Origin: Litchfieldia alkalitelluris
Lineage (GTDB): Bacteria > Bacillota > Bacilli > Bacillales > Salisediminibacteriaceae
Assembly: GCF_002153425.1 (NCBI RefSeq)
Contig: NZ_KZ119600.1
Location: 3,934,143-3,998,142 of the forward strand
DNA length: 64,000 nucleotides
Direction: 5' to 3'
Of the stretch, positions 4,705 through 63,003 are shown piece by piece. Below the pieces are notes generated by a model that searched no databases, was not told the DNA's origin, and saw only the letters and a list, made by a program, of their open reading frames with translations. How positions within the stretch are numbered: the stretch's first letter is position 1; every line of letters begins with the position of its first letter. Both the position numbers and the translations under genes were made by a program.

Positions 4705-4868
4705 TCTTCATTCTGAAAAATGAAGACTCAAATTGCTTTATCTTCCCATTTCAGTCTTCATTCTGAGAAAATGAAGACTCAAATTGCTTCCCTTCCTCAT
4801 TTCAGTCTCCATTTTGAAAAAATGAAGACTCAAACCGCTTCGCTTCCTCATTTCAGTCTCCATTCTAA
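4705..4868. repeat. 51-bp tandem dyad array 1 (about 3.3 units)
   Basis: Each unit starts with a hairpin, CTTCATT-ctgagaa-AATGAAG (7-bp arms, 7-nt loop), followed by about 30 nt ending in CATTTCAGT. The period is 51 bp, so a spurious open frame runs through it. It lies between the convergent metI and NERD genes, and its unit is homologous to the large array at 34.7-39.0 kb. Confidence 0.85.
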
Positions 4869-4913
4869 GTTCGAAGCTATTTATAAACTCCAAAAAAACT
4901 ACGTATTATAAAA

Positions 4914-4984
4914 CTAAGAAATAGCCTTCCCACATTTCAAACAGGATGACAATTTTCAACCACTGGGGAAGGCACTTTTCTTTA
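4914..4984. terminator. Bidirectional terminator between metI and the NERD gene
   Basis: GCCTTCCC at about 4923 pairs with GGGGAAGGC at about 4965. It is flanked by AAGAAA on the left and TTTTCTTT on the right, so it could stop transcripts from both convergent genes. The loop is long (about 35 nt), which lowers certainty. Confidence 0.55.
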
Positions 4985-5033
4985 TTCAGATTTATATCGG
5001 ACTACTTTGGATCCTGGCTCCCATTCAAAAATC

Positions 5034-5750
5034 CTAGTTACTATTCAAAAGGGACCTTACTTCTTCCAACTGCGCTTCATCTAGCTCCTTCTTCGGCACA
5101 CGCTTCTCAATATGTTCAGTTAAGTCCTTCCCATCAGTGAAAATCGGCGTTTTCCCCGAGGATTTTACCTTGACGTCCACTCTTTTATTTGTGAACAAAA
5201 CAGAACCTTCCACCAACACGTCCAACTTATTTTTCTTAAATAAGTTAGATAGTAGATGAACCTGCTTCCTCACTTCCTTCATGGGATTCCTCAACTCTGT
5301 TGAATAATTCCCACCTTTGCGCCCATCTTTATGCTGTACCCAAGACGAAGAGGACTCATTTCCTTCAATCGTACCCATGACATTTTTCACATCAACAACA
5401 AACACACCATTTTTCCCAACAACTAAATGATTAATTTCTGTCCGTTCTTTTCCGTTTGGAGAGGTGAGTTCAACATTTTCAATCACGTCATACCCATCTG
5501 GAATACTATCCTTTAAATCTACAGTGCCACTTTCCATCAGCATGGATTTCTTTAGCTTAGACGCCGTCCGCCAGTAATACACGCCAATGATCCCTGGAAT
5601 GAAAGGGACGATATGCAAGATCCCATTAAAGCGAAAACCGTATAGAAAGGCCACAATATATGTGATAGTTGGCACCCACAGAAGTGCAGACACCATACGA
5701 TAATGATTTACTTTTGTTTCTATTTGAAAGTTTGATTGAACCTCTGCCAT
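5034..5750 (-). CDS. Membrane-anchored NERD-domain protein
   Basis: A 238-aa protein with two N-terminal membrane segments (about residues 20-58) followed by a NERD (nuclease-related) domain. The core is visible as EINHLVVGKNGVFVVDVKN, with the D-V-K arrangement resembling the PD-(D/E)XK nuclease fold, then the conserved NPMKEVRKQVHLLSNLF helix and VLFTNKRVDV strand. NERD proteins are poorly characterised and a DNA-processing role is only assumed. RBS GGAGATAGCAAT. A second, unrelated-looking NERD protein lies at 39.1-40.0 kb. Confidence 0.82.
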   Translation of the reverse strand: MAEVQSNFQIETKVNHYRMVSALLWVPTITYIVAFLYGFRFNGILHIVPFIPGIIGVYYWRTASKLKKSMLMESGTVDLKDSIPDGYDVIENVELTSPNGKERTEINHLVVGKNGVFVVDVKNVMGTIEGNESSSSWVQHKDGRKGGNYSTELRNPMKEVRKQVHLLSNLFKKNKLDVLVEGSVLFTNKRVDVKVKSSGKTPIFTDGKDLTEHIEKRVPKKELDEAQLEEVRSLLNSN

Positions 5751-5975
5751 ATTGCTATCTCCTTTATAAGTAACATTGTTGCCCTTTTTAATGATTCATT
5801 TTCTCATAATTAACAGTATACTACAAATTTTAGTATGATTTCCTTTACCATTTTCGTAGGTAATTCTTCTATATTATTTCTACACGACTATTAACCCCTT
5901 TAACAATGATTTATAATAAGAATAGGATTTTATACTACTTTTTAACTATACAACCAAGGGGAACGAGGTAGAGAA

Positions 5976-7469
5976 ATGTCGAATGCAGCAGTTGATAAAA
6001 AACCAGTTCGGAATTTTACTGTCAAAGAACAAGATTTGATTCGTCGTAATTTTATTGTCTTTATTGCCATATCTATCGTCACTGGATTTTCTGTTGGAGC
6101 AATGCTCACAATGGGGGCCCTAGGGACAAATGATCTTATCATGCTCGGTTTAATGGTGTTAGTTTGGGGATTAGTTACGTTATTCCACTTTAAGAAAATA
6201 CTAATTAAGTATATTGGCTACATCGCTGTTTTTGGGTCAGCTATTAGTACTTCACTCACGATTTTTACAATGCCTGGATTCAGTAACATTTTTTCTGTCT
6301 ATTATATTATCATTTTAGCTTTAATTTACATGAACCATAAAATATCTATCATTACACAGACATATGGATTCATCATCTTGCTTTACATCGTTTATGGCCA
6401 AAATGATATATTACAGCTCTCTCAGGATGATCAGATTACTGCTGTCATTCATTACCTCTTAGTTACGGTTCTCATTATATCTATGTTACAAGTGAATAAA
6501 TTTGTAAATAGACAAATGGATGAATCTAGAGCCGAAACGGAAAAACTACTAGCAGAGCAGCAGAAACAGCAACAGGCGATGGCAAAGCTGGTTGAAGACG
6601 TAACAAAAAGTATGTCAGTTATATCTAAAACAAGCGAAAACAATAACTTATCATTTAATGAAATGAATAGCTCCTTTAGTGAAATTACTTCTGGTGTGAA
6701 CTCACAGAACGAAGCGACTGTTGATATAAACGAATCTGTTACTTCCATCACGGAACTGATTAAAAAAATGCACGATTCGATGGCAGAACTAAAAGAGGAA
6801 ACAACGGAGACGAACCATTTATCCTCTGAAGGTGAAAAGCAAATTTCATTTTTAACCGAAACGGTAAACCAGTTTAAAACTGAAATTGACTCCATGTCCA
6901 AAGACTTTAGTATTTTAATAGATAAGTTAAATGAAACAAGCCAATTCAGTAACACTATCAAGGAAATTGCAGAACAGACTAACTTACTTTCCTTGAATGC
7001 AAGTATAGAGGCTGCTCGAGCAGGGGAACACGGGCGCGGATTCTCTGTTGTAGCTGATGAGATCCGTAAATTATCGGATATGACCTCCCACTCCGCTGAT
7101 CAGATCTCTAATCAAATCGATTCATTCAGACAGCAATCTGACCAAACACGAGGACTCATGATTAAAGTTGCAGAACGGATGGATAATAGCTTTGAAGTTA
7201 CAACAAAAACAAATGATTCCTTTAAGTTAATTAATACAGCTATCACAAAGCTATCGGAGCTTGCAGATAACGGAAGCAACCTCATTTCTGAAATTAATCA
7301 AACAGTGGAAACGATTAATGGTTCAACAGAAGATCTAGCCGCTGTTAGTGAGCAATCTAGTGCATCTCTACAAGAACTAATTGCTACATTAGAAAACATT
7401 TTAGCAAGCAATACAAGTAGTTTAAACAGCATAAAAGAAGTTGAAGAAACCTTAAAAAAGTCTTCTTGA
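5976..7469 (+). CDS. Methyl-accepting chemotaxis protein with a multi-TM N-terminus and no HAMP
   Basis: A chemoreceptor of 497 aa. Residues about 22-175 form six hydrophobic segments with hardly any extracytoplasmic loop, so it lacks the usual Cache or four-helix sensor. Then comes a long coiled-coil methylation region and the CheA/CheW-binding hairpin tip ([20 protein letters not shown] at about residues 332-351). No HAMP domain is recognisable between membrane and coil. Such receptors usually sense a membrane-linked signal such as energy state, but that is inference. RBS ACGAGGTAGAGAA. A terminator follows. Confidence 0.9.
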
Positions 7470-7511
7470 TGACTAATGGAAATGAGACCCGTGTCAATTT
7501 GAAATGAATTT

Positions 7512-9817: not shown

Positions 9818-9907
9818 CCAGTTTTCGGTAACCCGACGACCGTAGCATTTGCCTTAGGCTCGTAGCTTTGCGTCCTTTCCTTTCAGAAAGTTTGCCTTTA
9901 TCGTTAT
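9818..9907 (-). promoter_or_regulatory. c-di-GMP-I (GEMM-I) riboswitch upstream of the LuxR-type gene
   Basis: The minus strand carries the GEMM-I core in order: AAAGGCAAAC, a short hairpin, GGACGCAAAGC, TACGAGCCTAAGGC, then GGTCGTCGGGTTACCGA. GACGCAAAGC, CCTAAGG and GGGTTACCGA are near-invariant in this class. The downstream terminator suggests transcriptional control. Whether ligand turns the gene on or off cannot be told by eye. Confidence 0.92.
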
Positions 9908-10137: not shown

Positions 10138-11304
10138 GTGAAAATCACAGACTTACATACACCAGAAGAAAGACTACAGTTTTTACAAGAAAAAGTTGAA
10201 GTATTTAAAGAACGAGCAGATAAACATGATAAGGAAGGCTCCTTCCCTGTCGATAACATTAATGACTTGCGTAGTATCGGTTATCCCGCTTTAACGGTAC
10301 CTAAGAGACACGGCGGCATGGAGATCTCCTTGTTGGAAATGGTACAGCTCCAAGAGGTCATTGGGAAAGCTGATGGTTCAACTGCACTCTCCATTGGGTG
10401 GCACATGGGTATTGTCATGCATTTAGATGAGCAAAAAATCTGGAATGAGGACATCTATCAATTTTTTTGTGAAGAAGTGGTCAAAAAGGGATCGCTTCTT
10501 AATAATGCTGCCTCTGAGCCTGCTACAGGAAGTCCTACACGAGGTGGGAAGCCAGAAACAACTGCGAAGGAATCTGATGATGGGACAGCGTGGATCATTA
10601 CAGGCAGGAAGAATTTCACGACCATGTCTCCTGTGCTCGATTATTTCGTTGTGAGTGCGTCCATCGATGGAACGGATCAAGTTGGAAACTTCTTAATTCC
10701 CCGTGGTACGAAAGGAATGGAGATTGAGGAAACGTGGGATTCCATTGCCATGAGAGGTACCGGCAGCCACGACCTTGTTTTGACAGAAGTAATGGTTAAA
10801 AAAGAACATTTGGTGGAGAATGTCACTCCTGGGAACAAATCCGCACAAGGCTGGCTCCTCCATATTCCAGCATGTTATCTCGGCATTGCTGGTGCGGCTC
10901 AAAACTACGCGATTCAATTTGCGAAAAGCTACTCACCAAATAGTATCAGTGGGACGATTAGTGACTTACCTAACGTGCGTCAAAAAATCGGTGAAATGGA
11001 GCTTCGCCTCCAAGAAAGTAAGCATTTCCTTTACTCCACTGCCCGCGAATGGGACGAAGCAAGTGAGGAGAAACGCAGCGAAATGAAGCCAATCCTCAGT
11101 GCCGTGAAGCATTCCGTAGTGAACAACGCAATCGAGGTAGTGGATTTGGCAATGAGGGTAGTTGGGGCACGAAGTTTATCCGCAGGGAATCCGCTTCAGC
11201 GCTATTATCGCGACGTTCGCGCTGGTCTTCATAACCCTCCAATGGACGACATGACGATCATGCTATTGGCGGCAGATGCTATTGAGCGGGAGCGGGAAAA
11301 ATAG
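10138..11304 (+). CDS. Acyl-CoA dehydrogenase family flavoprotein
   Basis: A 388-aa FAD enzyme of the acyl-CoA dehydrogenase fold, resembling the Bacillus YdbM type. The N-terminal helical domain includes LRSIGYPALTVPKRHGGM; the middle beta domain has WIITGRKNFTTMSPVLDYFV and SIAMRGTGSHDLVL; the C-terminal domain has LAMRVVGARSLSAGNPLQRY and the RDVRAGLHNPPMDD segment. The usual catalytic Glu could not be placed, so a monooxygenase-like or desaturase-like role (DszC/SfnB relatives) is also possible. It starts with GTG behind GAGGGAGGAAATAACACA. It is monocistronic, between two c-di-GMP riboswitch units. Confidence 0.82.
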   Translation: MKITDLHTPEERLQFLQEKVEVFKERADKHDKEGSFPVDNINDLRSIGYPALTVPKRHGGMEISLLEMVQLQEVIGKADGSTALSIGWHMGIVMHLDEQKIWNEDIYQFFCEEVVKKGSLLNNAASEPATGSPTRGGKPETTAKESDDGTAWIITGRKNFTTMSPVLDYFVVSASIDGTDQVGNFLIPRGTKGMEIEETWDSIAMRGTGSHDLVLTEVMVKKEHLVENVTPGNKSAQGWLLHIPACYLGIAGAAQNYAIQFAKSYSPNSISGTISDLPNVRQKIGEMELRLQESKHFLYSTAREWDEASEEKRSEMKPILSAVKHSVVNNAIEVVDLAMRVVGARSLSAGNPLQRYYRDVRAGLHNPPMDDMTIMLLAADAIEREREK

Positions 11305-11405
11305 GGTGTTTTGAATATTTCTGGGAATGATTGCTAGTGGCGGCGTAGGGGATCGTGAATTGTACGAAGTGTTCGCTAGTGCGGCGTAAATAGCATGGTG
11401 GTTAG

Positions 11406-11446
11406 TATCCAACTTTTTCATTGCTCATTTGCGAAAAAGTTGGATA
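11406..11446 (+). terminator. Stem-loop after the acyl-CoA dehydrogenase gene
   Basis: TATCCAACTTTTTC and GAAAAAGTTGGATA form a perfect 14-bp stem with a 13-nt loop. The following tract is only weakly T-rich (ATTTATG), so termination efficiency is uncertain. Confidence 0.6.
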
Positions 11447-11548
11447 ATTTATGTAATATAGTGCATTTTACCCACTATTTCCATGGTAAAATACCCTGTA
11501 ATTATCTGAAAATTTGTTAGATAATATATTTAATAAATTACATATCGT

Positions 11549-11727
11549 ACTAAAGGGCAAAATCATTGAAAAATGATGACGCAAAGCTAGAGGGGCTAAA
11601 GTGGAAGAATTTCTAGATTGAAATGTGAGCCGTAGAAGGACAACATGGTTCGTCCTCCCTCCTTATTGACCTTCTCCACTATGCCAGCCAGCTACCGAAA
11701 GCGGACCTCCGTGCGATGAATAGGAGG
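11549..11727 (+). promoter_or_regulatory. c-di-GMP-I (GEMM-I) riboswitch with an expanded variable stem, leading a small gene
   Basis: Core elements in order: AAAGGGCAAA, hairpin TCATTGAAAAATGA with a GAAA tetraloop, GACGCAAAGCTAGAGGGGCT, then after about 80 nt ATGCCAGCCAGCTACCGAAA. The 80-nt insert lies where the class has its variable loop and forms its own stems (AGTGGAAG with CTTCTCCACT, AGGAC with GTCCT). Downstream, ACCTCC (11706-11711) can pair with the GGAGG of the ribosome binding site at 11722-11727, suggesting translational control of the 54-aa gene that follows. Confidence 0.82.
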
Positions 11728-11735
11728 AAAAGTCT

Positions 11736-11900
11736 ATGATTAAAGTGCTTTGGCATGAAATTCTCTTAGATTATTACCTATTTTTCTACAACCGTTGCAG
11801 CGAGGCTGAACCTAAAAAGCGGGGTGCAATTATCCGCAAAGCCTTCTACCATCAGGATAAAATTGCACATTTCAGAAATGCTGAAAACGCTCCCAACTAA
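11736..11900 (+). CDS. Small 54-aa protein under a c-di-GMP riboswitch
   Basis: An open frame of 54 codons that starts with ATG eight bases after a perfect AGGAGG and is followed 52 bp later by a strong terminator. The protein starts MIKVLWHEILLDYYLFFYN, has one Cys, a basic stretch (EPKKRGAIIRK) and a His-rich middle (FYHQDKIAHF). It has no signal peptide or clear membrane helix and is likely cytoplasmic. It lacks the SQELD-type motif of Spo0E-like phosphatases, and I do not recognise a family. The riboswitch, RBS and terminator together make it a real gene rather than chance. Confidence 0.8.
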   Translation: MIKVLWHEILLDYYLFFYNRCSEAEPKKRGAIIRKAFYHQDKIAHFRNAENAPN

Positions 11901-11952
11901 TTAGAACTATGACTTAGCCTTCTCATGTTTTAAATATAGTAATATTTTGGCT

Positions 11953-11988
11953 AGCACCCTGAATTATTTTTCAGTGGTGCTTTTTTTT
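11953..11988 (+). terminator. Terminator of the small riboswitch gene
   Basis: AGCACC and GGTGCT, with an inner CTGAA/TTCAG, form the stem; eight T residues follow. Confidence 0.9.
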
Positions 11989-12116
11989 ACATAAAACCCC
12001 AAAAAAATTATAAGAAAAACACATCTATTGAAATTCACCGAATATATCAATTAGGTGTACTGGCTCAATTTGAATTACGGACATATATTATAGAAGATCG
12101 TGATGGGGAAAAATAA

Positions 12117-12890
12117 GCGGATTGTCCTCAGCTTGTGGGGGTGCGGACAAATTCAGCGTGAATGACTAGCCTTTTGTCCGCTGATCCTGCTTCTGCGGAC
12201 AGTTACAGCTTGAATCTCAACCCTTTTGTCCCCTGCTCCTACTTCTGTGGACATTTCCAACTTGAATCTCTAGCTTTTTGTCCGCTGACCTTGCTTCTGC
12301 GGACATTTCCAACGTGAATCTCTAGCATTTTGTCCGCTGATCCTGCTTCTGCGGACAGTTCTAGCTTGATTCTCTAGCTTTTTGTCCGTTGCTTCTTCTT
12401 CTGCGGACATTTCTAGCTTGATTCTCTAGTGTTTTGTCCGCTGCTCCTGCTTCTGCGGACATTTCTAGCTTGATTCTCTAGCCTTTTGTCCGCTGATCCT
12501 GCTTCTGCGGACAGTTCTAGCTTGATTCTCTAGCCTTTTGTCCGCTGCTTCTGCTTCTGCGGACAGTTACAGCTTGAATCTCAACCCTTTTGTCCCCTGC
12601 TCCTACTTCTGTGGACATTTCCAACTTGAATCTCTATCGTTTTGTCCGCTGCTCTTGCTTCTGCGGACATTTCTAGCTTGATTCTCTAGCTTTTTGTCCG
12701 CTGATCCTGCTTATGCGGACAATTCCAGCGTGAATCTCTAACATTTTGTCCGTTGCTCCTGCTTCTGCGGACATTTACAACGTAAAGCTCTAGACTTTTG
12801 TCCCCTGCTCCTGCTTCTGCGGACATTTACAACGTAAAGCTCTAGACTTTTGTCCCCTGCTCCTGCTTCTGCGGACAATTCCAAGATGGA
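12117..12890. repeat. 52-bp tandem dyad array 2 (about 15 units)
   Basis: Units of 52 bp contain TTTTGTCCGC, a loop of 13 nt (tgatcctgcttct), then GCGGACA, and a spacer such as GTTCTAGCTTGATTCTCTAG. Units vary at single positions, including paired changes of hairpin arms (for example GTCCCC with GTGGAC is imperfect, GTCCGC with GCGGAC perfect). It fills the gap between the c-di-GMP small gene and the convergent lytic-transglycosylase-like gene. No coding potential. Confidence 0.9.
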
Positions 12891-14404: not shown

Positions 14405-16636
14405 ATGAAAAAAAGTGTTGTTATTGCTGAAAAACCATCAGTTGCGCGGGATATTGCCCGTGTACTGAACTGTCATAAAAAAGGAAATGGATTCATCGAA
14501 GGACAGAAATACATCGTCACTTGGGCCTTGGGGCATTTAGTTACTCTCGCGGACCCTGAAGCGTATGACGATAAATATAAAGCGTGGAAGTTAGAAGATT
14601 TGCCGATGATGCCAAAGGATTTGAAGCTCACGGTTATTAAGAAAACGAGTAAACAGTTCCATGCTGTAAAAAGTCAATTGACCCGTTCCGATGCTGGAGA
14701 GATTATTATTGCAACGGATGCGGCTCGCGAAGGGGAACTTGTTGCTCGCTGGATCATTGAAAAAGCCAAGGTTAAAAAGCCTGTAAAACGACTTTGGATC
14801 AGTTCCGTTACGGACAAAGCAATCAAAGAAGGTTTTCAAAAACTCAAAGATGGTAGGGAGTACGAAAACCTATACCAATCAGCCGTGGCTCGCTCGGAAG
14901 CAGATTGGTATGTTGGCCTAAATGCAACGAGAGCACTAACTACTAAATTTAACGCTCAACTCTCTTGTGGACGGGTGCAGACCCCAACCGTTGCGATCAT
15001 CGCAAATCGTGAAAAGGAAATCCAAACATTTAAACCAAAGCCTTACTTTGGGGTAAAGGCAAAAACCGATCAGAACCTTTCCTTAACTTGGATTGACAAG
15101 AAAACGAACGATATGAGGACATTCTCTAAAGAGACAGGGGACAAGCTTTTATCCAAAACAAAGAATGAGAAACAGGCCACCATAGTTGACATTGACAAGA
15201 AACACAAAAAAGTTTTTTCCCCAGGACTATTTGATCTTACGGAACTACAGCGAGTGGCTAACAAGGCGTTCGGTTATTCTGCCAAGGAAACGCTAGGAAT
15301 TCTGCAGAAGCTATACGAGCAGCACAAGGTGTTGACTTACCCTCGGACGGATTCCCGTTTCTTATCAAGTGACATCGTGGACACGTTGAAGGATCGAATC
15401 AAGGCTTGTGGCAATGTGCGTGATTACACGAAGCTCGCCCACACTTTGCTTCAAAAGCCGATTAAGGGGAATAAATCATTCGTAGATGATAAGAAAGTAT
15501 CTGACCACCATGCGATTATACCAACAGAGGAAACGCCGATAGTAGCCAAGTTTTCAGATAAGGAAAGAAAGATTTATGATGTGGTTGTGAAGCGTTTCTT
15601 GGCTGTCATGTATCCTCCTTTCGAATTTGAGCAAACGACGATGAAGGCTGAGATTGCTGGGGAAAACTTTGTGGCTAAGGGGAAAACAGTGATCGCTCCG
15701 GGTTGGAAGGAAATCTATGACGACCGCTTTAGTGAAGAGGGAGACGAGGATCAAGCTGAGTTGCAGGAGCAATTGTTACCAAAACTCCATCAGGGAGATA
15801 AGCTTCAAATCACTTCAGTCAAACAAACAAATGGTGAAACGAAGCCGCCAGCTCGTTTTAATGAAGCGACATTATTATCAGCTATGGAAAACCCTGGTAA
15901 ATTCATCTCTGATATGGGGAATGAAACGAATAAGAAGGATTTGGCGAAAACGTTGGAGAAGACTGGCGGGCTTGGAACGGTTGCGACTCGCGCAGATATT
16001 ATTGACAAGCTTTTCAACAGCTTTTTGATCGAAAAAAAGGGGAAAGATATTCATATCACGTCAAAAGGAAAGCAGTTATTGGACCTTGTACCTGAAGATC
16101 TCAAGTCCCCCGCCTTAACGGCAGAATGGGAGCAAAAGCTTGAGGCCATTGCAAAAGGAAAGCTACCAAAAGCTACATTTATCAGCGACATGAAGGGCTA
16201 CGCAAAATCCGTAGTCTATGAAATAAAAAATAGCGAAAAAAAGTACAAACACACCAACATGACTGGGACGAAATGTCCTGATTGTGGTAAATTCATGCTT
16301 GAGGTGAATGGGAAAAAAGGTAAAATGCTTGTGTGTCAGGATCGTGATTGTGGACATAGGAAGAACATCTCCAAAGTCACGAATGCCAGATGTCCTAAGT
16401 GTAAAAAGAAGCTAGAGTTGCGTGGACAAGGCGAAGGTCAAGTGTTCGTCTGTAAATGTGGTCATAAGGAAAAGCTCTCCACGTTCAATGAACGAAAGGC
16501 GAAAGAAAAGAACACGAAATTGTCCAAGCGAGAAGTGAATCAATACATGAAGAAGCAAAATAAGCAGGAAAGTAATGATGAACCATTTAACCCTGCTCTG
16601 GCAGATGCCCTGGCAAAGCTAAAGTTGAAGGACTAA
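14405..16636 (+). CDS. topB: DNA topoisomerase III (type IA)
   Basis: A type IA topoisomerase of 743 aa that relaxes and decatenates DNA. The N-terminal Toprim begins VVIAEKPSVARDIARVL; the acidic motif appears in ATDAAREGELVARW; the active-site Tyr is Y312 in YPRTDSR. The C-terminus has two zinc-ribbon units (CPDCGKFMLEV with CQDRDCGH; CPKCKKKLEL with CKCGHKEK) and a lysine-rich tail. Length and layout match Bacillus TopB (about 730 aa). RBS AAAGGAATG. It is alone in its transcription unit and followed by a terminator. Confidence 0.95.
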   Translation: MKKSVVIAEKPSVARDIARVLNCHKKGNGFIEGQKYIVTWALGHLVTLADPEAYDDKYKAWKLEDLPMMPKDLKLTVIKKTSKQFHAVKSQLTRSDAGEIIIATDAAREGELVARWIIEKAKVKKPVKRLWISSVTDKAIKEGFQKLKDGREYENLYQSAVARSEADWYVGLNATRALTTKFNAQLSCGRVQTPTVAIIANREKEIQTFKPKPYFGVKAKTDQNLSLTWIDKKTNDMRTFSKETGDKLLSKTKNEKQATIVDIDKKHKKVFSPGLFDLTELQRVANKAFGYSAKETLGILQKLYEQHKVLTYPRTDSRFLSSDIVDTLKDRIKACGNVRDYTKLAHTLLQKPIKGNKSFVDDKKVSDHHAIIPTEETPIVAKFSDKERKIYDVVVKRFLAVMYPPFEFEQTTMKAEIAGENFVAKGKTVIAPGWKEIYDDRFSEEGDEDQAELQEQLLPKLHQGDKLQITSVKQTNGETKPPARFNEATLLSAMENPGKFISDMGNETNKKDLAKTLEKTGGLGTVATRADIIDKLFNSFLIEKKGKDIHITSKGKQLLDLVPEDLKSPALTAEWEQKLEAIAKGKLPKATFISDMKGYAKSVVYEIKNSEKKYKHTNMTGTKCPDCGKFMLEVNGKKGKMLVCQDRDCGHRKNISKVTNARCPKCKKKLELRGQGEGQVFVCKCGHKEKLSTFNERKAKEKNTKLSKREVNQYMKKQNKQESNDEPFNPALADALAKLKLKD

Positions 16637-24228: not shown

Positions 24229-24288
24229 GATCTCGTCCTCCTCTACAATTTTTTCGTTCGTTTTTTTGTATAAAAAGGTAAAGTATCT

Positions 24289-24757
24289 CTATCTCACGCG
24301 AAGTTGCGTAGATTTCCCTTTTTCGCGTGCGATTAGCTGTCTATAGAACGCGAACTCACGCGGATTCCTCTTTTTCGCGTACGATTAACTGTCTATCGAA
24401 CGCGAATTCACGCGGATTCCTCTTTTTCGCGTGCGATTAACTGTCTATCGAACGCGAACTTACGCGACTTTCCCTTTTTCGCGTGCGATTACACCTCTAT
24501 CTCACGCGAACTTACGCGACTTTCCCTTTTTCGCGTGCGATTAGCTGTCTATCTCACGCGAATTTGCGTAGATTCCTCTTTTTCGCGTGCGATTAGCTGT
24601 CTATCGAACGCGAACTCACGCGGATTCCTCTTCTTCACGTGAGATTAACGCTCTATCGAACGCGAACTCACGCAGATTCCTCTTTTTCGCGTGAGATTAA
24701 CGCTCTATCGAACGCGAACTTACGCGACTTTCCCTTTTTCGCGTGAGATTACCCGCC
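24289..24757. repeat. 52-bp tandem dyad array 3 (about 9 units)
   Basis: Units of 52 bp contain TTTTTCGCGTGCGATTA, a CTGTCTATC segment and CGAACGCGAACTCACGCGGA. TTCGCG and CGCGAA form the dyad; ACGCG is repeated within the unit. The array separates the dehydratase gene from the aldolase gene although both point left. Confidence 0.9.
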
Positions 24758-34727: not shown

Positions 34728-34848
34728 GACTGCATTTTTTCAAAATGCGGACTAAATTCCTTCTCTCATGCAATTCTTGGCCGCATTCTCTTAAAATGCG
34801 GACTAGATTCTACCTCTATCCCATTTCTTGGCCGCATTCTCTTAAAAT
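34728..34848. repeat. 51-bp tandem dyad array 4, left block (about 2.3 units)
   Basis: Units contain CCGCATT-ctctcaa-AATGCGG (hairpin) and a spacer GACTAGATTCTACCTCTATC then CCATTTCTTGG. The block ends at an IS3-family element at 34849 and resumes at 36373. Confidence 0.9.
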
Positions 34849-35050
34849 CGGGCCAACCCCCTAAGTTTGGACACATACTCTAAATATCTTACTTATTCGT
34901 TGATTCTTATTTTTCTTCTTTTGTCCTTATTCAGTGTAGCCACCTCTTTCATTCCATCAAGGGTAAAGGCTACGCCCTCGCTACGCTCACCCTTGATTCC
35001 ATTCCAGAATTGGCTGATTTATTTTTGGGACAAAAGAAGGCAAAATAATA

Positions 35051-36010: not shown

Positions 36011-36294
36011 TTTACCTGTTCTCGAAGTAAGGCAACTTCTAACTCTTTTTCCCCTAAAAGCTTCATTGCATGGTCATATTTAGCTTGTAAATCTGATTGA
36101 GTGGAATTCTCCGAAAGAGGTAGAACTCCTTCTTCTTCCATATCTGATTCTATCTCATCTCTGTATAGCTTGACCCATGTTTGTAAAGTCTTAGGAGCTA
36201 CACCTACCTTTCGTGCAATAAATGAAGTATTACCTGATTCTAGTGCCATACGAACATATTTCTTCTTCACTTCTTCGAATGGTCCCTTACTCAT
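35992..36294 (-). CDS. IS3-family OrfA (HTH protein), element A
   Basis: A 100-aa helix-turn-helix protein (FIARKVGVAPKTLQTWVKLY) with a C-terminal coiled coil (LLGEKELEVALLREQVKK). The run AAAAAAAAA near its 3' end is the probable slippery site leading into OrfB. Confidence 0.92.
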   Translation of the reverse strand: MSKGPFEEVKKKYVRMALESGNTSFIARKVGVAPKTLQTWVKLYRDEIESDMEEEGVLPLSENSTQSDLQAKYDHAMKLLGEKELEVALLREQVKKNLKG

Positions 36295-36372
36295 TTCCGA
36301 CTCCTCCTCCTTATATAATTTATTTTATAATTTTATGTTTGAGGTGTCCAAATGAGTTAGGGGGCTAAATAG

Positions 36373-37080
36373 AAATGCGGACTAGATTCCTCCTCTCACG
36401 CATTTTTTGGCCGCATTCTCTCAAAATGCGGACTAGATTCTACCTCTATCCCATTTCTTGGCCGCATTCTCTTAAAATGCGGACTAGATTCTTCCTCTCA
36501 TGCATTTCTTGGCCGCATTCTCTCAAAATGCGGACTAGATTCTACCTCTATCCCATTTCTTGGCCGCATTCTCTCAAAATGCGGACTAGATTCTACCTCT
36601 ATCCCATTTCTTGGCCGCATTCTCTCAAAATGCGGACTAGATTCTACCTCTATCCCATTTCTTGGCCGCATTCTCTCAAAATGCGGACTAGATTCTACCT
36701 CTATCCCATTTCTTGGCCGCATTCTCTCAAAATGCGGACTAGATTCTACCTCTATCCCATTTCTTGGCCGCATTCTCTCAAAATGCGGACTAGATTCTAC
36801 CTCTATCCCATTTCTTGGCCGCATTATTCCAAAATGCGGACTAGATTCTACATCTACACCATTTCTTGGCCGCATTCTATTAAAATACGGACTAGATTCT
36901 ACCTCTATCCCATTTCTTGGCCGCATTCTCTCAAAATGCGGACTAGATTCTACCTCTATCCCATTTCTTGGCCGCATTATTCCAAAATGCGGACTAGATT
37001 CTACATCTACACCATTTCTTGGCCGCATTCTCTCAAAATGCGGACTAGATTCTACCTCTATCCCATTTCTTGGCCGCATT
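36373..37080. repeat. 51-bp tandem dyad array 4, middle block (about 14 units)
   Basis: The same units as the left block, many identical. Because 51 is divisible by three, long repetitive open frames exist on both strands (17-residue repeats such as MRTRFYLYPISWPHSLK), but they have no RBS and are not considered genes. Confidence 0.93.
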
Positions 37081-37226
37081 TGGTCCTCTGTCAAGAAAGT
37101 AGACAAAAATTAGAGAGAAATATCGGTTATATGAGTTGATTTTACAAACTTCCGTTAAAGAATTCTGATACTTAATATTCTTATAACTTGGTTAGATGTC
37201 CATCAGCTGGGTTCTCTCGTTTCTTC

Positions 37227-37341
37227 GCAACTTGACACGGAGCCTCTGCGGGCATGTGTTCCTAGCCACGAAGCCACATAGGTTACAGAACCTGTGGCTC
37301 GCCAAGGAGGCTAACATACCCGCCACTCCGTGTAAAGTTGC
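37227..37341. other. Long nested hairpin inside the non-coding part of IS3 element B
   Basis: GCAACTTGACACGGAG (37227-37242) pairs with CTCCGTGTAAAGTTGC (37326-37341). Inside, GCGGGCATGT (37248-37257) pairs with ACATACCCGC, and AGCCACATAGG pairs with CCTGTGGCT at the apex. It lies downstream of OrfB, between its stop codon and the element end, where IS3 elements normally have little sequence. Confidence 0.75.
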
Positions 37342-37361
37342 TTTGTGTCTGCCACTTGAGA

Positions 37362-38249
37362 TTATGCGGCACTTTCTCCTTTGTCTGCTTTTTGCTTATT
37401 GCCATGGAGTTTTTCGTACTCATTTGGCGATACATAGCCTAATGTCGAATGGCTCCTTCTTGCGTTATAAAAGCTCATGATGTACTTCCATATTTCCTTA
37501 GCTGCTACTTCACGGTTCTCAAACTTCTGTCTGTACACTAGCTCTTTTTTAAGTGAGGAAAAAAATGACTCCATGCACGCATTGTCATAACAGTTTCCTT
37601 TACGACTCATACTTATTTGCATGTTACATTCCTTAAGCCGATCAATGTAATCCTGAGAGGTATACTGACTTCCTCGGTCAGAGTGGTGGATTAACCCTTC
37701 CCCTGGTTTTCTTGAACTAATAGCTCGTTCCAAAGCTCTTAATGGCAATTCTTTTGTCATCGTTTTATCTGTAGCCCACCCTATGATTTTTCGGGAGAAC
37801 AAATCCATCACTGTCGCTAAGTACAACCAACCCTGCATTGTCCAAATATACGTAATATCCGTTACCCAAACACTATTTGGTTTGTCTACTTCAAACTGTC
37901 TATTTAATAGATTAGGGTAAATTGGATTTTGATGCTTAGAATCCGTTGTTACCACAAACTTTTTCTTCGGTGTTGCTCGTAACCCCATTTCCCGCATATA
38001 TTTACCAACAGTTCTTTCAGCTATTTTAATCCCAAGTTTCCATAATTCCCTGGTAATCCTAGGGCTACCATAAACAGACCTATATTCAAAGAATAGCCTA
38101 CGGATCTTTGCCATTAACCTCTTTTTTCTTTGCTTACAAGGCAAGTTGTTTTCTTTGCTGGTTTTTATCCATTTATAATATCCACTCTTTGAAACCTTTA
38201 GGACTTCGCACATCTTCACAACTCGAAATTCCTTTCGGTGCTCATACAT
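37362..38249 (-). CDS. IS3-family transposase OrfB, element B
   Basis: DDE transposase of 295 aa from its first Met. HTH_21 region SVYGSPRITREL; Asp in VWVTDITYIWT, Asp in HHSDRGSQYTS, Glu in NACMESFFSSLKKE. The frame extends upstream through KKGGAHLHERPIVKFNF to AAAAAAG at 38294-38300, where -1 slippage from OrfA would give the fusion. Confidence 0.95.
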   Translation of the reverse strand: MYEHRKEFRVVKMCEVLKVSKSGYYKWIKTSKENNLPCKQRKKRLMAKIRRLFFEYRSVYGSPRITRELWKLGIKIAERTVGKYMREMGLRATPKKKFVVTTDSKHQNPIYPNLLNRQFEVDKPNSVWVTDITYIWTMQGWLYLATVMDLFSRKIIGWATDKTMTKELPLRALERAISSRKPGEGLIHHSDRGSQYTSQDYIDRLKECNMQISMSRKGNCYDNACMESFFSSLKKELVYRQKFENREVAAKEIWKYIMSFYNARRSHSTLGYVSPNEYEKLHGNKQKADKGESAA

Positions 38250-38263
38250 AAAGTTAAACTTAA

Positions 38264-38569
38264 CTATCGGCCTTTCATGAAGATGTGCGCCGCCTTTTTT
38301 ATAATCTCATTCTCCTCCTTTAATTCATTAATTTGATCTAGCAGTTCTTTCTCACGTTTCTTGTACTCTCCAGGTGTAATATATTCTGTTCCTTCTTTAC
38401 TTTGCTTTAACTTTTCCCGATACTTTTTTACCCAGCGATATATGTTTTTGCTTGAGATATCCATTTCACTACTAACCTCTGTAGCTTTCTTTCCTTCTTC
38501 TACTACTAACTTAGCGATATACTCTTTAAACTCCTCATCATAGGTTTTAATCATTTTGACACGCTCCAT
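38264..38569 (-). CDS. IS3-family OrfA (HTH protein), element B
   Basis: A 101-aa protein with a homeodomain-like HTH (ATEVSSEMDISSKNIYRWVK) and a C-terminal leucine-rich coil (LLDQINELKEENEIIKKAAH). ATAAAAAAGG near its end is the predicted frameshift site. Confidence 0.93.
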   Translation of the reverse strand: MERVKMIKTYDEEFKEYIAKLVVEEGKKATEVSSEMDISSKNIYRWVKKYREKLKQSKEGTEYITPGEYKKREKELLDQINELKEENEIIKKAAHIFMKGR

Positions 38570-38625
38570 TTCTAGATTATGGTTTTATTCTCTCCATAAC
38601 GTGTCCACTTTATAGTCTAGACCCA

Positions 38626-39040
38626 CATTCTCTTAAAATGCGGACTAGATTCCTCCTCTCACGCATTTCTTGGCCGCATTCTCTTAAAATGCGGACTAGA
38701 TTCCTCCTCTCACGCATTTCTTGGCCGCATTCTCTCAAAATGCGGACTAGATTCTACCTCTATCCCATTTCTTGGCCGCATTCTCTTAAAATGCGGACTA
38801 GATTCTACCTCTACACCATTTCTTGGCCGCATTATTCCAAAATGCGGACTAGATTCTACCTCTATCCCATTTCTTGGCCGCATTCTCTTAAAATGCGGAC
38901 TAGATTCCTCCTCTCACGCATTTCTTGGCCGCATTCTCTCAAAATGCGGACTAGATTCCTCCTCTCACGCATTTCTTGGCCGCATTCTCTTAAAATGCGG
39001 ACTAGATTCTACCTCTATCCCATTTCTTGGCCGCATTTCA
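38626..39040. repeat. 51-bp tandem dyad array 4, right block (about 8 units)
   Basis: Continues the array after IS3 element B, up to the stop codon of the NERD/zinc gene at 39079. Two spacer variants alternate (TTCTACCTCTATCCCATTTC and TTCCTCCTCTCACGCATTTC). Confidence 0.93.
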
Positions 39041-39078: not shown

Positions 39079-40035
39079 TTAATATAAATCCTCGTTTGAA
39101 TCACGATCCCTTTTCTCAACATAGTATGAGTTTTTCCCATACCCCATTCTAGAAAAATTTTTTACTAGAACCCTTCTAATTGATCGGACTGACACAGCAC
39201 CACCACACCAGTTATAAATTAATTCAGTAGTTATTTTCATATCAGGAAAAAGCCATATTAGCTCTTTAATAGTGCGAAGAATTGCTTCATCCATTTTCTC
39301 GGAGCACAAACAGTTAGGACACTTTATAATCATTTTATTAGATATATGAATATAAGAAGTACCACAGTTTTCACAAAACACCCCCGAATCCAGTTCCTCC
39401 AATGCATACTTAGGAAGATTACGATACTGATCCTCCTCTTTCCGCTGGGACAAAATGGCCTCCGCATATTTCATGTGGCGCTGATTAAGTTTTACAGACA
39501 ACTGGCCTTGCAAATGGTTGATGAAGTTGTGAAGTTGAGTTGGATAAATGATTGGGAGGTCTTTGGGAGCTTGTTTCAAGGTGAATTTCTGATTTACAAA
39601 AACAAGGAAGGGCTTAATAGTTAGGTGAATGCCGAGACTATGAAGTAGTTGACGAAGCGAGGCTTCCGTACGTTCAAGTTGAATCATAAAATTTTTTGCT
39701 TCTTTATTCGAATTACAGAAATACCACTTCCTATCTTGAATGTAATAGTCCCCTTCAGAGGTTTTAATTTCAAAGATGTAAATGGACGAGTGGCTAATGA
39801 TGGCTGAATCGATTTGAAACTCTGAATTATTTAGCTCAAACAATAGATCATTTAGAACGAGACCATGACCATTAAGACCTTTGAGGAGCTCATCAAACTG
39901 CTCCTCTCCTTGAAAACCTTTGACTTGATTGGAAAAATAAAGTTGGATATCCTCTGGAAGTTTGGATCGGCATTGGAGGATTTTCTGAAGCTTAAGTTTT
40001 AGTGGAAACTCACGGGGTTTTAATAGAGTGACCAT
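39079..40035 (-). CDS. NERD-domain protein with C-terminal zinc ribbon
   Basis: A 318-aa soluble protein. The NERD domain covers about residues 45-165: GFQGEEQFDELLKGL, DSAIISHSSIYIFEIKT (the D-x(n)-E-x-K nuclease-like core) and PFLVFVNQKFTL. A zinc ribbon follows (CENCGTSYIHI, KCPNCLC) and a C-terminal helical part (IRRVLVKNFSRMGYGKN). Unlike the NERD protein at 5.0-5.7 kb it has no membrane segments. The ATG at 40035 is preferred over the GTG at 40047. Function unknown; a nucleic-acid role is assumed for the family. Confidence 0.85.
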   Translation of the reverse strand: MVTLLKPREFPLKLKLQKILQCRSKLPEDIQLYFSNQVKGFQGEEQFDELLKGLNGHGLVLNDLLFELNNSEFQIDSAIISHSSIYIFEIKTSEGDYYIQDRKWYFCNSNKEAKNFMIQLERTEASLRQLLHSLGIHLTIKPFLVFVNQKFTLKQAPKDLPIIYPTQLHNFINHLQGQLSVKLNQRHMKYAEAILSQRKEEDQYRNLPKYALEELDSGVFCENCGTSYIHISNKMIIKCPNCLCSEKMDEAILRTIKELIWLFPDMKITTELIYNWCGGAVSVRSIRRVLVKNFSRMGYGKNSYYVEKRDRDSNEDLY

Positions 40036-40117
40036 CTGAAAAACCACTTCCCTTCTTCTCTATTTAATTGTGAAACATTTCACTTTCATTTTAACCCTAC
40101 CCATAGAATTTTTCAAC

Positions 40118-46117: not shown

Positions 46118-46146
46118 CTAAACGGAGGGACGGTTCTCCCGTTTAC
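46118..46146 (-). repeat. REP-like palindrome after truA
   Basis: Minus copy (CTAAACG, GGGACGGTTCT, CCGTTTAC), two bases after the truA stop. Confidence 0.9.
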
Positions 46147-46224
46147 AAACACTGAAATGGACGGTCAGGTTTATGTAGTGTTCAGCGTTGGTTGATTGAA
46201 CATGTTCATTGATCATCACACGGT

Positions 46225-46263
46225 GTAAACGGGAGAACCGTCCCCATGTTCACGCATGTTCAC
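46225..46263 (+). repeat. REP-like palindrome flanking the RAYT gene, 3' side
   Basis: Full plus copy 46225-46253 (GTAAACG, GAGAACCGTCCCC, GTTCAC), followed by a second terminal piece GCATGTTCACG that contains the stop codon of the transposase gene. Confidence 0.93.
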
Positions 46264-47042
46264 GCTTTGTTAATTAGTGCTGCAGATACGCCAAAGATTC
46301 TTGCAGCTTGTCGCTGTGATACACCTTCGATTCCCTTTACTTTTCTAAAGACTTCATTCCGTTCTTGTTGTGTTAAGGTTTTTACTTTTGTGATGTCGAT
46401 GCCGTATACAATTAACATTTCACTTATTTGTATACGGGCTTCATCGTCCAGTAACCTTCTCTTATATGTGAAGTCCTCTAGGCACTCATCTTCGTTGTTT
46501 CTTTCATTAAATTCCTTAAACCTATTTTTTGCCACAAAAGGGTCGTCTGAAAATTGCCCTAAAACGTACTGACTATCTAGGAGGGTCCCTGGATAAACGA
46601 GTTCACCGTAGTACCCCCTCGCGCTACTCCATTTCCAGTCATCTATGTTTACTACCATTCCCGCTTTAACTGGATTCTGATGTATATACCGAACGACAGT
46701 TAAAAGATATCTACCACTTTCCACACACTCACTCTTAAAGCGATCTTGAAACAAGTGTCCAGTTGTGGCATATTTCCAGTTATAGTACCAGACAAAACTC
46801 ACGCCAATTCTCCTCAACGTCATCGAAATATCCTCCTCCCCCTCTTTTAAAAGAAGATGGACGTGGTTGTTCATCAAACACCAACCATAAACTGGCATAC
46901 GGTACTTCTCTTTATATTTCATTAATGTGTTGAGAAACTGTAAAAAGTCAGTATTCTCATGAAAAATTTCCTGACGGTTCGCTCCCCTCATAATAATATG
47001 ATAAATTCCACTTTTACTTTTCTTACGTGCTTGACGCGGCAT
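46260..47042 (-). CDS. REP-associated tyrosine transposase (RAYT, Y1/IS200-like HUH)
   Basis: A 260-aa single-strand DNA transposase of the Y1 superfamily. It has GIYHIIMRGANRQEIF at the start, the HUH motif NNHVHLLLK, and the candidate catalytic Tyr in VVRYIHQNPVKAGMV, followed by WSSARGYYG. The C-terminus carries a helix-turn-helix (VSQRQAARIFGVSAALINK). It lies between two inverted REP copies, the arrangement expected of a RAYT with its own REPs. The ATG at 47042 is chosen because the 18 codons upstream are translated REP. The stop TGA lies in REP-derived sequence. It appears intact. Confidence 0.93.
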   Translation of the reverse strand: MPRQARKKSKSGIYHIIMRGANRQEIFHENTDFLQFLNTLMKYKEKYRMPVYGWCLMNNHVHLLLKEGEEDISMTLRRIGVSFVWYYNWKYATTGHLFQDRFKSECVESGRYLLTVVRYIHQNPVKAGMVVNIDDWKWSSARGYYGELVYPGTLLDSQYVLGQFSDDPFVAKNRFKEFNERNNEDECLEDFTYKRRLLDDEARIQISEMLIVYGIDITKVKTLTQQERNEVFRKVKGIEGVSQRQAARIFGVSAALINKA

Positions 47043-47067
47043 ATTATCACCAACCTTCATTTTTTTT

Positions 47068-47096
47068 GTAAACGTAGGGACGGTTCTGCTGTTCAC
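47068..47096 (-). repeat. REP-like palindrome flanking the RAYT gene, 5' side
   Basis: Full minus copy (GTAAACG, GGGACGGTTCT, TGTTCAC), 25 bp before the transposase start and inverted relative to the copy at 46225. Confidence 0.93.
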
Positions 47097-47970
47097 GAAT
47101 GAAAATTACCAACAATTTGTAGTGGATTGCAGCTCATTAGCGGCTCAAAGCCAAACAAAACAAAATAAAATAAATGAATTATCAAATAACTGGTATGTGG
47201 AGCATATGTGTGGAGCGCCTGATTGAGTTTGGTTCAACTAACGTTGAATCCTTTTTTCTAGAAGTAAAGTAAGGGAAAAGTAAGCTGGTAGGCAGATATG
47301 AGATGAATGATACGCATTTTAGTTGCCAAAATCTGCTGAAATGAGGTGGCCGCTAGAACGACCATACAGCTATTCGGCAAGGTAAGATCGGGAGGGAATC
47401 CGATGATTAAAAATAGAAATAACAAATTGAATTGAGCCACGAAAGTTTTTGGGAAACCCTGAAGTAATATGTAGAAAAATAAGTTGTTAAAAAGAAGATA
47501 TTACATTTAAAGTAAGGAAATGAATATATAAGTATGCTTGAAGTAGAAAGCTATGAAGTATGTTGAGGTCATAAAGGGGTATCAATACCAATAGTAATTT
47601 ATTAAATCTATTTTATACTATCCTTTTAAATAAAGCACTAAAAAACACTTAAACTAGCAAACTTTTTTGTAGAGTTTTGGTGGCGGAGGCGTTCGTTATT
47701 GCTAACACACCTTGTCCTACCAAAGCATGCTGTGTGTCCCCTAACTAATACGAACAATTAATAGATTGAGATTGCATAAGAAAAAAGTAAAGCGCATGTC
47801 TTACTAAAACACACACTTCACCTTCATATAGCCTATTTGTTTCTTCCTGCTCCATTTTGCAAGTTTTAAGGGGTTGAGCCCTATGTTGCCTATCATTTTC
47901 AACTAAGGTGACTCTTTTCTTAGCTTTAGCACATAGTTTGAACGGAAGGAACGGCCCCCACGTTTTTACC
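47097..47970. other. Gene-free region
   Basis: About 870 bp with no convincing coding frame. A 60-codon minus frame at 47258-47440 has no RBS and no family resemblance. The DNA may contain the remains of a lost gene; a degenerate REP lies at about 47940-47968. Confidence 0.5.
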
Positions 47971-47975
47971 GCTTT

Positions 47976-48004
47976 GTAAACGCAAGAACCGTCCCTGCGT
48001 TCAC
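47976..48004 (+). repeat. REP-like palindrome
   Basis: Full plus copy (GTAAACG, AAGAACCGTCCC, GCGTTCAC) with a degenerate neighbour on the left. Confidence 0.92.
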
Positions 48005-48132
48005 GTTAGGTGATTTTTTTCCTAGTTTAGACATACTGTGAACACGAGGATCGGCTACCACTTATAAAACCGTGCTCTCATTCCGATTTTGTGAAAGGTA
48101 GAACCGCCACGCGCAACGCTTACAGTCGCTTT

Positions 48133-48189
48133 GTAAACGCAAGAATCGTCCCTCCGTTCACCCCCTGCGTTCACACCTGCGTTCACACC
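48133..48189 (+). repeat. REP-like palindrome with tandemly repeated tail
   Basis: A plus copy with one core change (GAATCGTCCC), 48133-48161, followed by two further copies of the terminal piece (CCTGCGTTCAC). A degenerate relative starts at 48038. Confidence 0.85.
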
Positions 48190-48204
48190 CAACCACCCCA
48201 CTGC

Positions 48205-60596: not shown

Positions 60597-60687
60597 ATCC
60601 TCACCACCTATGGACTTTACTAGAAAGAGGTTGGGACATATCTAGAGTGTTTAACTTGAAATATGAACATTTCCAAAATATAGCGCA

Positions 60688-60869
60688 GGAAATATACGAA
60701 GTGCCTCTTCCTCTACGAGCATATGCTACGAAGCATATCCGTCGAGGCAACTCGAGGCATATTCGTGATGCAACGCTCGTTCCTGCGGGATTAAAGGCAG
60801 GGGTGAGACCCCACAGTGCGTAGCACGAGGAGGCTCACCAGCCGCCCGCGGAAAGCGTAGTATATTTCC
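60688..60869. repeat. Dispersed Bacillus-type repeat with 10-bp terminal inverted repeats
   Basis: 182 bp ending in GGAAATATAC (60688-60697) and its exact inverse GTATATTTCC (60860-60869). It shares long blocks with 2411-2690. It lies inside the xylF-xylG gap of an operon; its GC-rich folds may attenuate transcription of xylGH relative to xylF. Confidence 0.85.
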
Positions 60870-60928
60870 GAAGCGATATGTTCGAGTTTCTCATAAGTTA
60901 GAACACTTTTGTCCCAGCCTCTTACAGT

Positions 60929-61990: not shown

Positions 61991-62055
61991 TGAACATCCC
62001 CCTTGTACCTATTAGTGTTTTTTACATTCTAAATTTATCACGATGTCCGTCTAAA

Positions 62056-62069
62056 TGTGAGCGCTTTCA
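62056..62069. promoter_or_regulatory. Catabolite-responsive element (cre) upstream of xylF
   Basis: TGTGAGCGCTTTCA fits the CcpA site consensus TGWNANCGNTNWCA. Its place 65 bp before the xylF start suggests glucose repression of xylFGH. Confidence 0.75.
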
Positions 62070-62104
62070 TCTTCACTTTTTTGCAAACATCTAGATTATT
62101 TTGT

Positions 62105-62225
62105 GCTTGGAAAACTCGAGTCGGGTGATTAGAAAACGCGTGTCGGGAGATTAGAAAACTCGAGTGTTATGGTTGGAAAACTCGCGTGTGATTAGGAAAC
62201 ACGAGTGTGATAGCTGGAAAACTAA
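62105..62225. repeat. Degenerate short-period repeat (about 25 bp)
   Basis: GGAAAACTCGAGT, AGAAAACGCGTGT, GAAAACTCGCGTGT and AGGAAACACGAGTGT recur every 20-27 bp, each holding a small dyad (CTCGAG, ACGCGT). It adjoins the larger array to the right. Confidence 0.65.
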
Positions 62226-62274
62226 AATAGTGTCCTTTGCAAACTTGAGTGGAGTGAATTCAGACTTTTGATTC

Positions 62275-63003
62275 CGGTACTTTATTGGCTCCGTTTTTTG
62301 CCGAAGCCACTGATCCAATCTTATAAAGGTAAATTAAATTGGCTTTATTTGACCGAAACCATTGAGCGAACTATGTAAAAGGAAATTAAATCGAGTTTAA
62401 TTACTCAAAACCAATGCTCCAGCCTGCTAAAGGGAAATTAAATCAACTTTAATTACCCGAAACCAATGAGCGAATCCCGTAAAGGGAAATTAAATCAAGT
62501 TTATTTACCCGAACGCAACGAGCACACCTGGTAAAGGGAATTTAAATTGAGTTTAATTCCCCGAAGCCAATGAGCACACATACTAAAGGGAAATTAAATC
62601 GAGTTTAATTACTCGAAACCAATGAGCGCACCTGGTAAAGGGAAATTAAATCAGCTTTATTTACCCGAAACCAACAAGCGCACCTACTAAAGGGAAATTA
62701 AATCAACTTTATTTACCCGAAACCAATGAGCGAACCCCGTAAAGGGAAATTAAATCAAGTTTATTTACCCGAAACCAATGAGCGAACCCCGTAAAGGGAA
62801 ATTAAATCAGCTTTAATTACCCGAAACCAATGAGCGAACCTGATAAAGGGAAATTAAATCAAGTTTATTTACCCGAAACCAATGAGCGAACCCCGTAAAG
62901 GGAAATTAAATCAGCTTTAATTACCCGAAACCAATGAGCGAACCTGATAAAGGGAAATTAAATCAAGTTTAATTACTCGAAACCAATGAGCACACCCGGC
63001 CCC
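62275..63003. repeat. 52-bp tandem dyad array 6 (about 14 units)
   Basis: Units of 52 bp: TAAAGGGAAATTAAATCAAG, TTTATTTACCC, GAAACCAATGAGCGAACCCC. GGGAAATTAAA and TTTATTTACCC form an imperfect hairpin. The leftmost units are the most diverged. It lies between the regulator gene and xylF, both leftward, so the xylF promoter must be to its left or transcription must cross it. Confidence 0.92.

Follow-up and report, generated by a model that had tools for sequence, protein, structure and literature searches.

Tandem arrays of 51- and 52-bp units in Litchfieldia alkalitelluris: conserved inverted arms at fixed spacing, possibly phased sites for a DNA-binding protein

The window analysed here is a 64,000-nucleotide stretch of the Litchfieldia alkalitelluris genome (RefSeq assembly GCF_002153425.1, contig NZ_KZ119600.1, positions 3,934,143 to 3,998,142, forward strand), which contains a set of intergenic tandem arrays with units of 51 or 52 bp. 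A sequence-only reading of the window had proposed that these arrays share their period, that each unit holds one dyad (a pair of inverted arms), and that most of them have no obvious sequence in common. All seven arrays that it named were recovered with Tandem Repeats Finder (TRF), at periods of 51 or 52 bp, and a dyad is present in every unit consensus; the remaining TRF rows of the window are short or low-scoring. The arrays, with their family letters, and two elements of the IS3 family of insertion sequences (IS) that lie among them are as follows.

4700-4866, + strand: family C array (TRF), 51 bp, 3.3 units, arms TTCAGTCTTCATT / AATGAAGACTCAA
12142-12883, + strand: family B array (TRF), 52 bp, 14.3 units, arms TGCGGACA / TTGTCCGC
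24288-24751, + strand: family D array (TRF), 52 bp, 8.9 units, arms ACGCGAA / TTCGCGT, 26 bp apart both ways
34742-34848, + strand: family A array, first fragment (TRF), 51 bp, 2.1 units, the array being apparently split by IS3
34849-36372, - strand: first IS3-family element between family A fragments, transposase open reading frame (ORF) 35051-35779, ends inferred from the array edges
36373-37080, + strand: family A array, middle fragment (TRF), 51 bp, 13.9 units, arms AATGCGG / CCGCATT
37081-38625, - strand: second IS3-family element between family A fragments, transposase ORF 37362-38249, ends inferred from the array edges
38626-39037, + strand: family A array, third fragment (TRF), 51 bp, 8.1 units
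62103-62223, + strand: irregular 22-bp array (about two turns) adjoining the family E array, near a published class of 20-21 nt
62324-62999, + strand: family E array (TRF), 52 bp, 13 units, arms GGGAAATTAAA / TTTAATTACCC

To place these arrays in their genome we sampled 60 stretches of 20 kb across the chromosome which, together with the window, amount to 1.264 Mb (26% of 4.88 Mb). The sample holds 97 non-coding arrays, a total that leaves out arrays in long ORFs (three 51/52-bp arrays of this genome), and 15 of them have a period of 51, 32 of 52 and 1 of 53 bp, which by hand sum is 48 of 97. The runner-up is 21 bp, with seven arrays, and no further period has more than four. The class is by far the commonest in the sample, and the broad spread of periods that would have spoken against the sequence-only reading was not found. 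With multiples included it covers 30,853 bp, or 2.44% of the sample, in 52 blocks, and the 45 blocks in 1.2 Mb outside the window scale to about 180 arrays per genome. The best-dyad score averages 8.8 in 50 arrays of this genome, against 5.0 in shuffled units, and 7.5 against 4.7 in 31 arrays of other Bacillales. Where the period is different (at least 30; 21 of 27 non-coding arrays scored, with consensuses above 130 nt skipped), dyad scores resemble those of the shuffles, a few being slightly higher.

Clustering of 55 arrays, in which short 53-bp rows were assigned to 52 and multiples to their unit, gave eight families of at least two arrays and three singletons. The period is fixed within each family, with no exception among the 55: 51 bp in A, C and H, and 52 bp in B, D, E, F and G. 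The proposed absence of common sequence holds between families, but not for the three arrays at 34.7-39.0 kb; since these have a common unit and are separated by two IS3-family elements, they are probably one array broken twice. Nor does it hold for the genome, in which the families recur, the family A array at 36373-37080 having 32 matches. The same array matched none of eight genomes of the genus (0/8), and this family, the one tested, is thus species-specific. The strand agrees with the replichore in 5/5 arrays of family A, 10/11 of F and 6/7 of H, and in 4/8 of E, 4/7 of D, 4/6 of G and 4/6 of C.

Within the unit, the conserved part is the arms. We compared units in 45 of the 81 51/52-bp arrays, namely those with at least five usable units and a dyad score of at least 6.5, which were therefore chosen partly by dyad score. 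Departures from the consensus affect 3.4% of arm cells and 13.2% of the cells elsewhere (loop plus spacer). In a control with rotated arms, the rotations averaged 8.7% against 3.3% for the true arms, and the latter varied less than the mean of the rotations in 43 of the 45 arrays (median rank 2%). Between arrays of one family (seven families), arms are 86-96% identical, loops 46-78% and spacers 52-69%, each value being the better of two strands, with the arm figure raised by selection on arm likeness and some "spacers" holding outer arm letters. Family E is left out of these comparison counts, its seed being too weak (29 arrays caught).

The geometry of the arms is equally well kept. Of 536 opposite-arm intervals, 523 show the modal spacing (seven families, distances up to 130 bp, hand sum), a total that leaves out the variant row F2 (33/37 modal) and same-type intervals, which include a few off-lengths, e.g. 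44 and 50. Six of the 13 non-modal intervals equal the mode plus one period, so that in these one arm has merely mutated. In family F, 82 of 83 loops are 11 nt long, yet they make up nine classes, which are less than 60% alike; the spacers, of which 83 of 85 measure 23 nt, likewise form nine classes. The ratio of mismatches to indels is 17.4 in 68 arrays of the 51/52-bp class, compared with 3.9 in 46 other non-coding arrays of the same genomes, which are more diverged. Length is therefore much better protected than the sequence of the filler, since the spacing is modal, the filler has diverged and indels are rare relative to mismatches.

The sequence-only reading had further supposed that a period of about five turns places every dyad on the same helical face. 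The periods agree with this (52/5 = 10.4 and 21/2 = 10.5 bp per turn), but the arm spacing inside the unit differs among families. A general rule of two- and three-turn arm spacing, which we also considered, was discarded as the spacing varies by family. A helical reason for 52 and 21 bp, as five and two turns, is attractive but unproved.

The arm pairs themselves are seldom found elsewhere: for 8 of 10 arm-pair patterns every copy in the 1.264 Mb lies within an array, which led us to reject the idea that the arrays are decoy operators. The family A pair has one palindromic site outside arrays, and the family F pair has 14 "outside" matches, of which the six listed fall in arrays missed by the filter.

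Arrays of the same period but different sequence occur in relatives. In 1.96 Mb of other Bacillales there are 27 arrays at 52, 4 at 51, 1 at 53, 17 at 21 and 4 at 20 bp, and 51- or 52-bp arrays were present in each of eight genomes representing four other families in the order, which were not drawn at random, having been picked for hits in a search with the motif CCGAAGC. Loci from other bacteria (265 kb, mostly Clostridia) gave no 51/52-bp array; the Bacillales rate predicts about 4 for that length. At free spacing, CCGAAGC matches 48 of 397 genomes of the order, this one included, and among the matches listed 17 of 28 genomes have arrays of non-coding appearance with a span of 109-113 nt (period of about 52; hand count, by eye). 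Across the phylum 15 of 199 genomes match, i.e. this genome and 14 others, and among the matches listed these 14 show coding-like repeats or single genes; this control rests on one motif. In two genomes CCGAAGC repeats at 21 or 63 bp and not at 52 (G379 C1 1766952-1767333 and G244 C1 324636-325395), spacings that are again near whole helical turns. Genomes G006 and G008 carry 52-bp arrays of their own, of other sequence. The stretches of G004, G006 and G008 hold 16 arrays, 10 of them with period 21, and irregular 20-22 bp arrays are seen at 62103-62223 of the window and in G008 (locus L230, 2786-5141).

Genes were called as long ORFs, so that gene contexts are approximate. Among arrays between two called genes, divergent gaps are depleted (7/68 against 270/1115 in the background, p=0.007) and convergent gaps are enriched (21/68 against 166/1115, p=0.002). 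With a home-made terminator finder, an intrinsic terminator was found ahead of the array, within 400 bp, at 47 of 69 array-facing gene ends, and at 38 of the 46 ends that lie at least 100 bp from the array. Background gene ends are similar, with terminators at 96 of 150 sampled. The array at 62.3 kb, where related genomes have terminator-like hairpins instead (see below), had prompted the idea that an array acts as a terminator; as a rule this is rejected, the 47/69 ends being terminated earlier and the background being similar. Around the terminus blocks are sparse: 17 of the 60 loci hold 4 of the 45 (p=0.001, with a cut-off set after seeing the data), and the scarce region extends over about 1.75-3.15 Mb of the genome, around the GC-skew switch.

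The array at 62.3 kb sits between an AraC-type gene and a xylF-type gene. In G004 and G008, two genomes of the same genus, this gene pair has 105 and 78 bp between aligned parts, in place of 982 bp in the window; the array is absent, and terminator-like hairpins (by eye) are found instead. Beside the G008 homologues of the genes next to the arrays at 12.1 and 24.3 kb no 51/52-bp array is present, the far neighbours there being different or not compared. Insertion sequences appear to have entered the arrays: all four IS3-family transposase genes in the sample (4/4) lie between array pieces, with arrays making up 2.4% of the DNA. The two outside the window, both in stretches of 51/52-bp arrays, are listed here.

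Locus L012, about 11154-12554: IS3-family element
Locus L180, about 15124-16523: IS3-family element

Two IS3 copies with identical transposases lie one in a family F array and the other in or beside a family E stretch. A genome-wide search gave seven IS3 transposase matches, of which three lie outside the sample and encode the same protein as the second element of the window; one of these three is about 420 bp from a family A match. Among 91 genes neighbouring arrays no gene family other than IS3 clearly recurs, five other pairs having 24-41% identity. A phage source was sought with two arm patterns, which gave no stretch in viral_contigs; the 36373-37080 array has no match in plasmids, and an array of locus L033 none in phages.

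Several features of the neighbourhood are recorded for their own sake. The closest named relative of one window protein is from Evansella halocellulosilytica (80% identity). Two cyclic di-GMP-I riboswitches lie within 2 kb of each other, at 9824-9906 (-) and 11546-11603 (+), the latter about 0.5 kb ahead of the family B array. The genes 5034-5750 (-), 39079-40047 (-) and L031 19291-19947, all of them beside arrays, show a weak or partial likeness to the defence kinases MAD6/PglW, and the proteins of 39079-40047 and L031 19291-19947 are 41% identical.

The sequence-only reading knew of no named element family of this kind, and in this it was mistaken: the phenomenon is known, since Subirana and Messeguer (2021) describe Bacillus repeats of constant size and variable, species-specific sequence, with short signals and their reverse, which they term enigmatic (PMC8161180; the class was described in 2020-21). 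That survey of 176 Bacillus genomes, among them B. cellulosilyticus, counts 4029 repeats, of which 1886 are 51-53 nt long and 781 are 20-21 nt, and proposes a polymerising nucleoid protein or a small RNA (PMC8161180). The present arrays resemble the published 52-nt repeats in their 51-53 period, in having several species-specific families per genome, in being non-coding, in the 20-21-nt companion class, and in short signals with their reverse in every unit. By eye, L056 3159-3711 and L049 12809-13281 of the same-genus genome G002 match the B. cellulosilyticus families 61_52_6 and 37_52_10. In the available part of PMC8161180 the arm-versus-loop conservation, the arm geometry, the lack of compensation, the position of terminators, IS targeting and empty sites are not reported, and in its main text the terms "terminator", "insertion sequence" and "palindrom" occur 0 times. 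Arm geometry, absent compensation, the relation to terminators and IS targeting may be new here; we found no earlier report of them in the literature covered.

Other known systems offer partial parallels. The arrays share with clustered regularly interspaced short palindromic repeats (CRISPR) a combination of conserved and variable parts at constant length, a comparison also made in PMC8161180. However, CRISPR spacers are unrelated within an array, whereas the variable parts of the present units resemble one another inside an array (loop and spacer cells depart from the consensus in 13.2%) and differ between arrays. Bacterial interspersed mosaic elements (BIMEs), built of repetitive extragenic palindromic (REP) sequences in enterobacteria and pseudomonads, are likewise intergenic and abundant, with alternating inverted palindrome halves. 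BIMEs are bound by IHF, gyrase and DNA polymerase I (PMC2817692), and REPs are insertion targets of some IS elements (PMC1525189), just as the four sampled IS3 copies lie in arrays. Unlike BIMEs, the window arms show no GTAG/CGTC tag, such a word being present in 1 of 7 window consensus units (at 36.4 kb, one CTAC, in the loop). We know of no fixed whole-turn period in BIMEs. The window also has its own REP-associated tyrosine transposase (RAYT).

46260-47096, - strand: REP-associated tyrosine transposase gene (NCBIfam REP_Tyr_transpos score 79.5, cut-off 80)

The flanks of this gene (about 46127-46256, 47073-47098 and 47940-48190) contain several imperfect palindromes with GGGACGGTTCT / AGAACCGTCCC, which on their sequence are a REP system separate from the arrays. 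No array arms were seen beside four of the five Y1_Tnp genes (218-281 aa), whose flanks were read by eye, and for the RAYT genes seen we reject an origin of the arrays from RAYT and REP. Among known systems BIMEs come closest, but the arrays, judged by their arms, are not RAYT-linked REPs. In the sopC plasmid centromere, tandem units of about four turns each contain a short inverted repeat bound by protein. It is one site, on a plasmid, with a known protein partner, whereas about 180 arrays, as scaled from the sample, are dispersed in the chromosome.

The arms are conserved at exact spacings while the filler drifts, changes of length are resisted, divergent gaps are avoided, and at about two thirds of the facing gene ends a terminator precedes the array. 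We propose, with a probability of about 0.45, that the arrays are phased double-stranded sites read as sequence by a DNA-binding protein, either a scaffold or an amplification enzyme. Of the explanations offered by the sequence-only reading, a protein-binding scaffold appears to fit best, given that the arms are conserved in sequence and their spacing is held as the rest of the unit drifts. In each array the inverted half-sites, which are the arms of about 7-15 bp, would follow one another at exact spacings along the DNA duplex. Each arm would be recognised by one DNA-binding protein, or by one member of a small protein set for each family. The five-turn period (52 bp, or 51 in some families) may serve to repeat the sites on about the same face of the helix. 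The bound protein could then line up or polymerise along the array, possibly bridging arrays with one another, and might have a role in the nucleoid. Its identity could be either that of a host scaffold protein or that of the enzyme that copies the arrays.

That the arrays act through RNA, being transcribed into hairpin chains or processed into small RNAs with Hfq, proteins or mRNAs as binding partners, is a reading we consider quite improbable. Every unit can fold, RNA sequencing of B. coagulans is reported to give reads of 52-nt repeats in three tabled conditions (PMC8625621, a follow-up by Subirana and Messeguer), and 14 of 23 gene ends within 100 bp of an array have no intervening terminator. 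However, compensatory changes show no excess in the 45 arrays (3 matched double changes against 4.4 expected by shuffling), and there is no wobble bias, with 75 G.T and 75 A.C mismatches, so that no RNA strand is favoured. The arms therefore seem to be kept as words, and other families have different words with the same mirror symmetry, which fits protein sites and hairpins equally. Hairpins, moreover, need no length fixed to 1 bp, and the terminators at 47/69 facing ends lie ahead of the array. Rfam gave no match to the one array tested at E-values up to 1, nor in the window arrays at gathering scores. The chains of stable RNA hairpins suggested by the sequence-only reading are accordingly disfavoured by compensation, wobble and terminators alike.

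A possible but more doubtful explanation than that of phased protein sites is that the arrays are selfish or neutral satellites with no host function, their arms being recognition sites of a copying or moving enzyme (a transposase, recombinase or replication factor) that also sets the length of 51/52 bp; one copying mechanism behind the arrays is possible. Gain and loss between species, as at 62.3 kb, speak for this reading, as do a family that is absent from the eight same-genus genomes and yet dispersed in its own, the placing of most arrays in harmless gaps, their scarcity around the terminus, and IS3 copies inside arrays, as reported for REPs. On the other hand, the tyrosine transposase of the window is flanked by GGGACGGTTCT and not by array arms, the 91 neighbouring genes hold no clearly recurrent family but IS3, and a separate enzyme for each family would have to yield the same length. 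Mere inertia, with a single ancestral 52-bp unit giving rise to all arrays, drifting in sequence and simply keeping its length, is highly improbable. Pieces such as CCGAAGC at 52-bp spacing are common to several genera, but loops and spacers have strongly diverged between arrays with lengths nearly unchanged, and, per mismatch, indels are about 4.5 times less frequent than in other arrays. Since sequence drifts without length drift, selection or a length-setting mechanism is needed.

Several observations weigh against phased sites for a DNA-binding protein. The genome holds at least eight arm families, so that a single sequence-specific protein could not read them all unless they had some feature in common. 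Within a unit, the arms frequently differ from each other at one or two fixed positions, which is odd for a strict dimer site, and no arm-to-arm phase is common to all families. In this genome alone the depletion of divergent gaps is not significant (p=0.14). Moreover, a terminator comes first at just 9 of 23 gene ends less than 100 bp from the array, so that some arrays may be transcribed, and the reported transcription of the B. coagulans repeats (PMC8625621) suits an RNA role.

A more elaborate form of the protein-site reading, which we regard as unlikely, is a satellite chromatin: fast-evolving, arm-specific proteins would polymerise on the five-turn-phased arrays and bring some 180 quiet sites between genes together in nucleoid bodies, and IS3 would home to the complex and not to a sequence. 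Such homing is suggested by two copies of one IS3, identical in transposase, that lie in array stretches belonging to different families.

For the class as a whole, these results turn "constant size, variable sequence" into a testable rule, in which the arm words and their geometry would be the functional part. The same results disfavour, on sequence grounds, the published small-RNA suggestion. If the arms are functional, they can serve as bait for finding the protein. Such a protein, if found, would explain how the same unit length comes to be found throughout a bacterial order in arrays of unrelated sequence.

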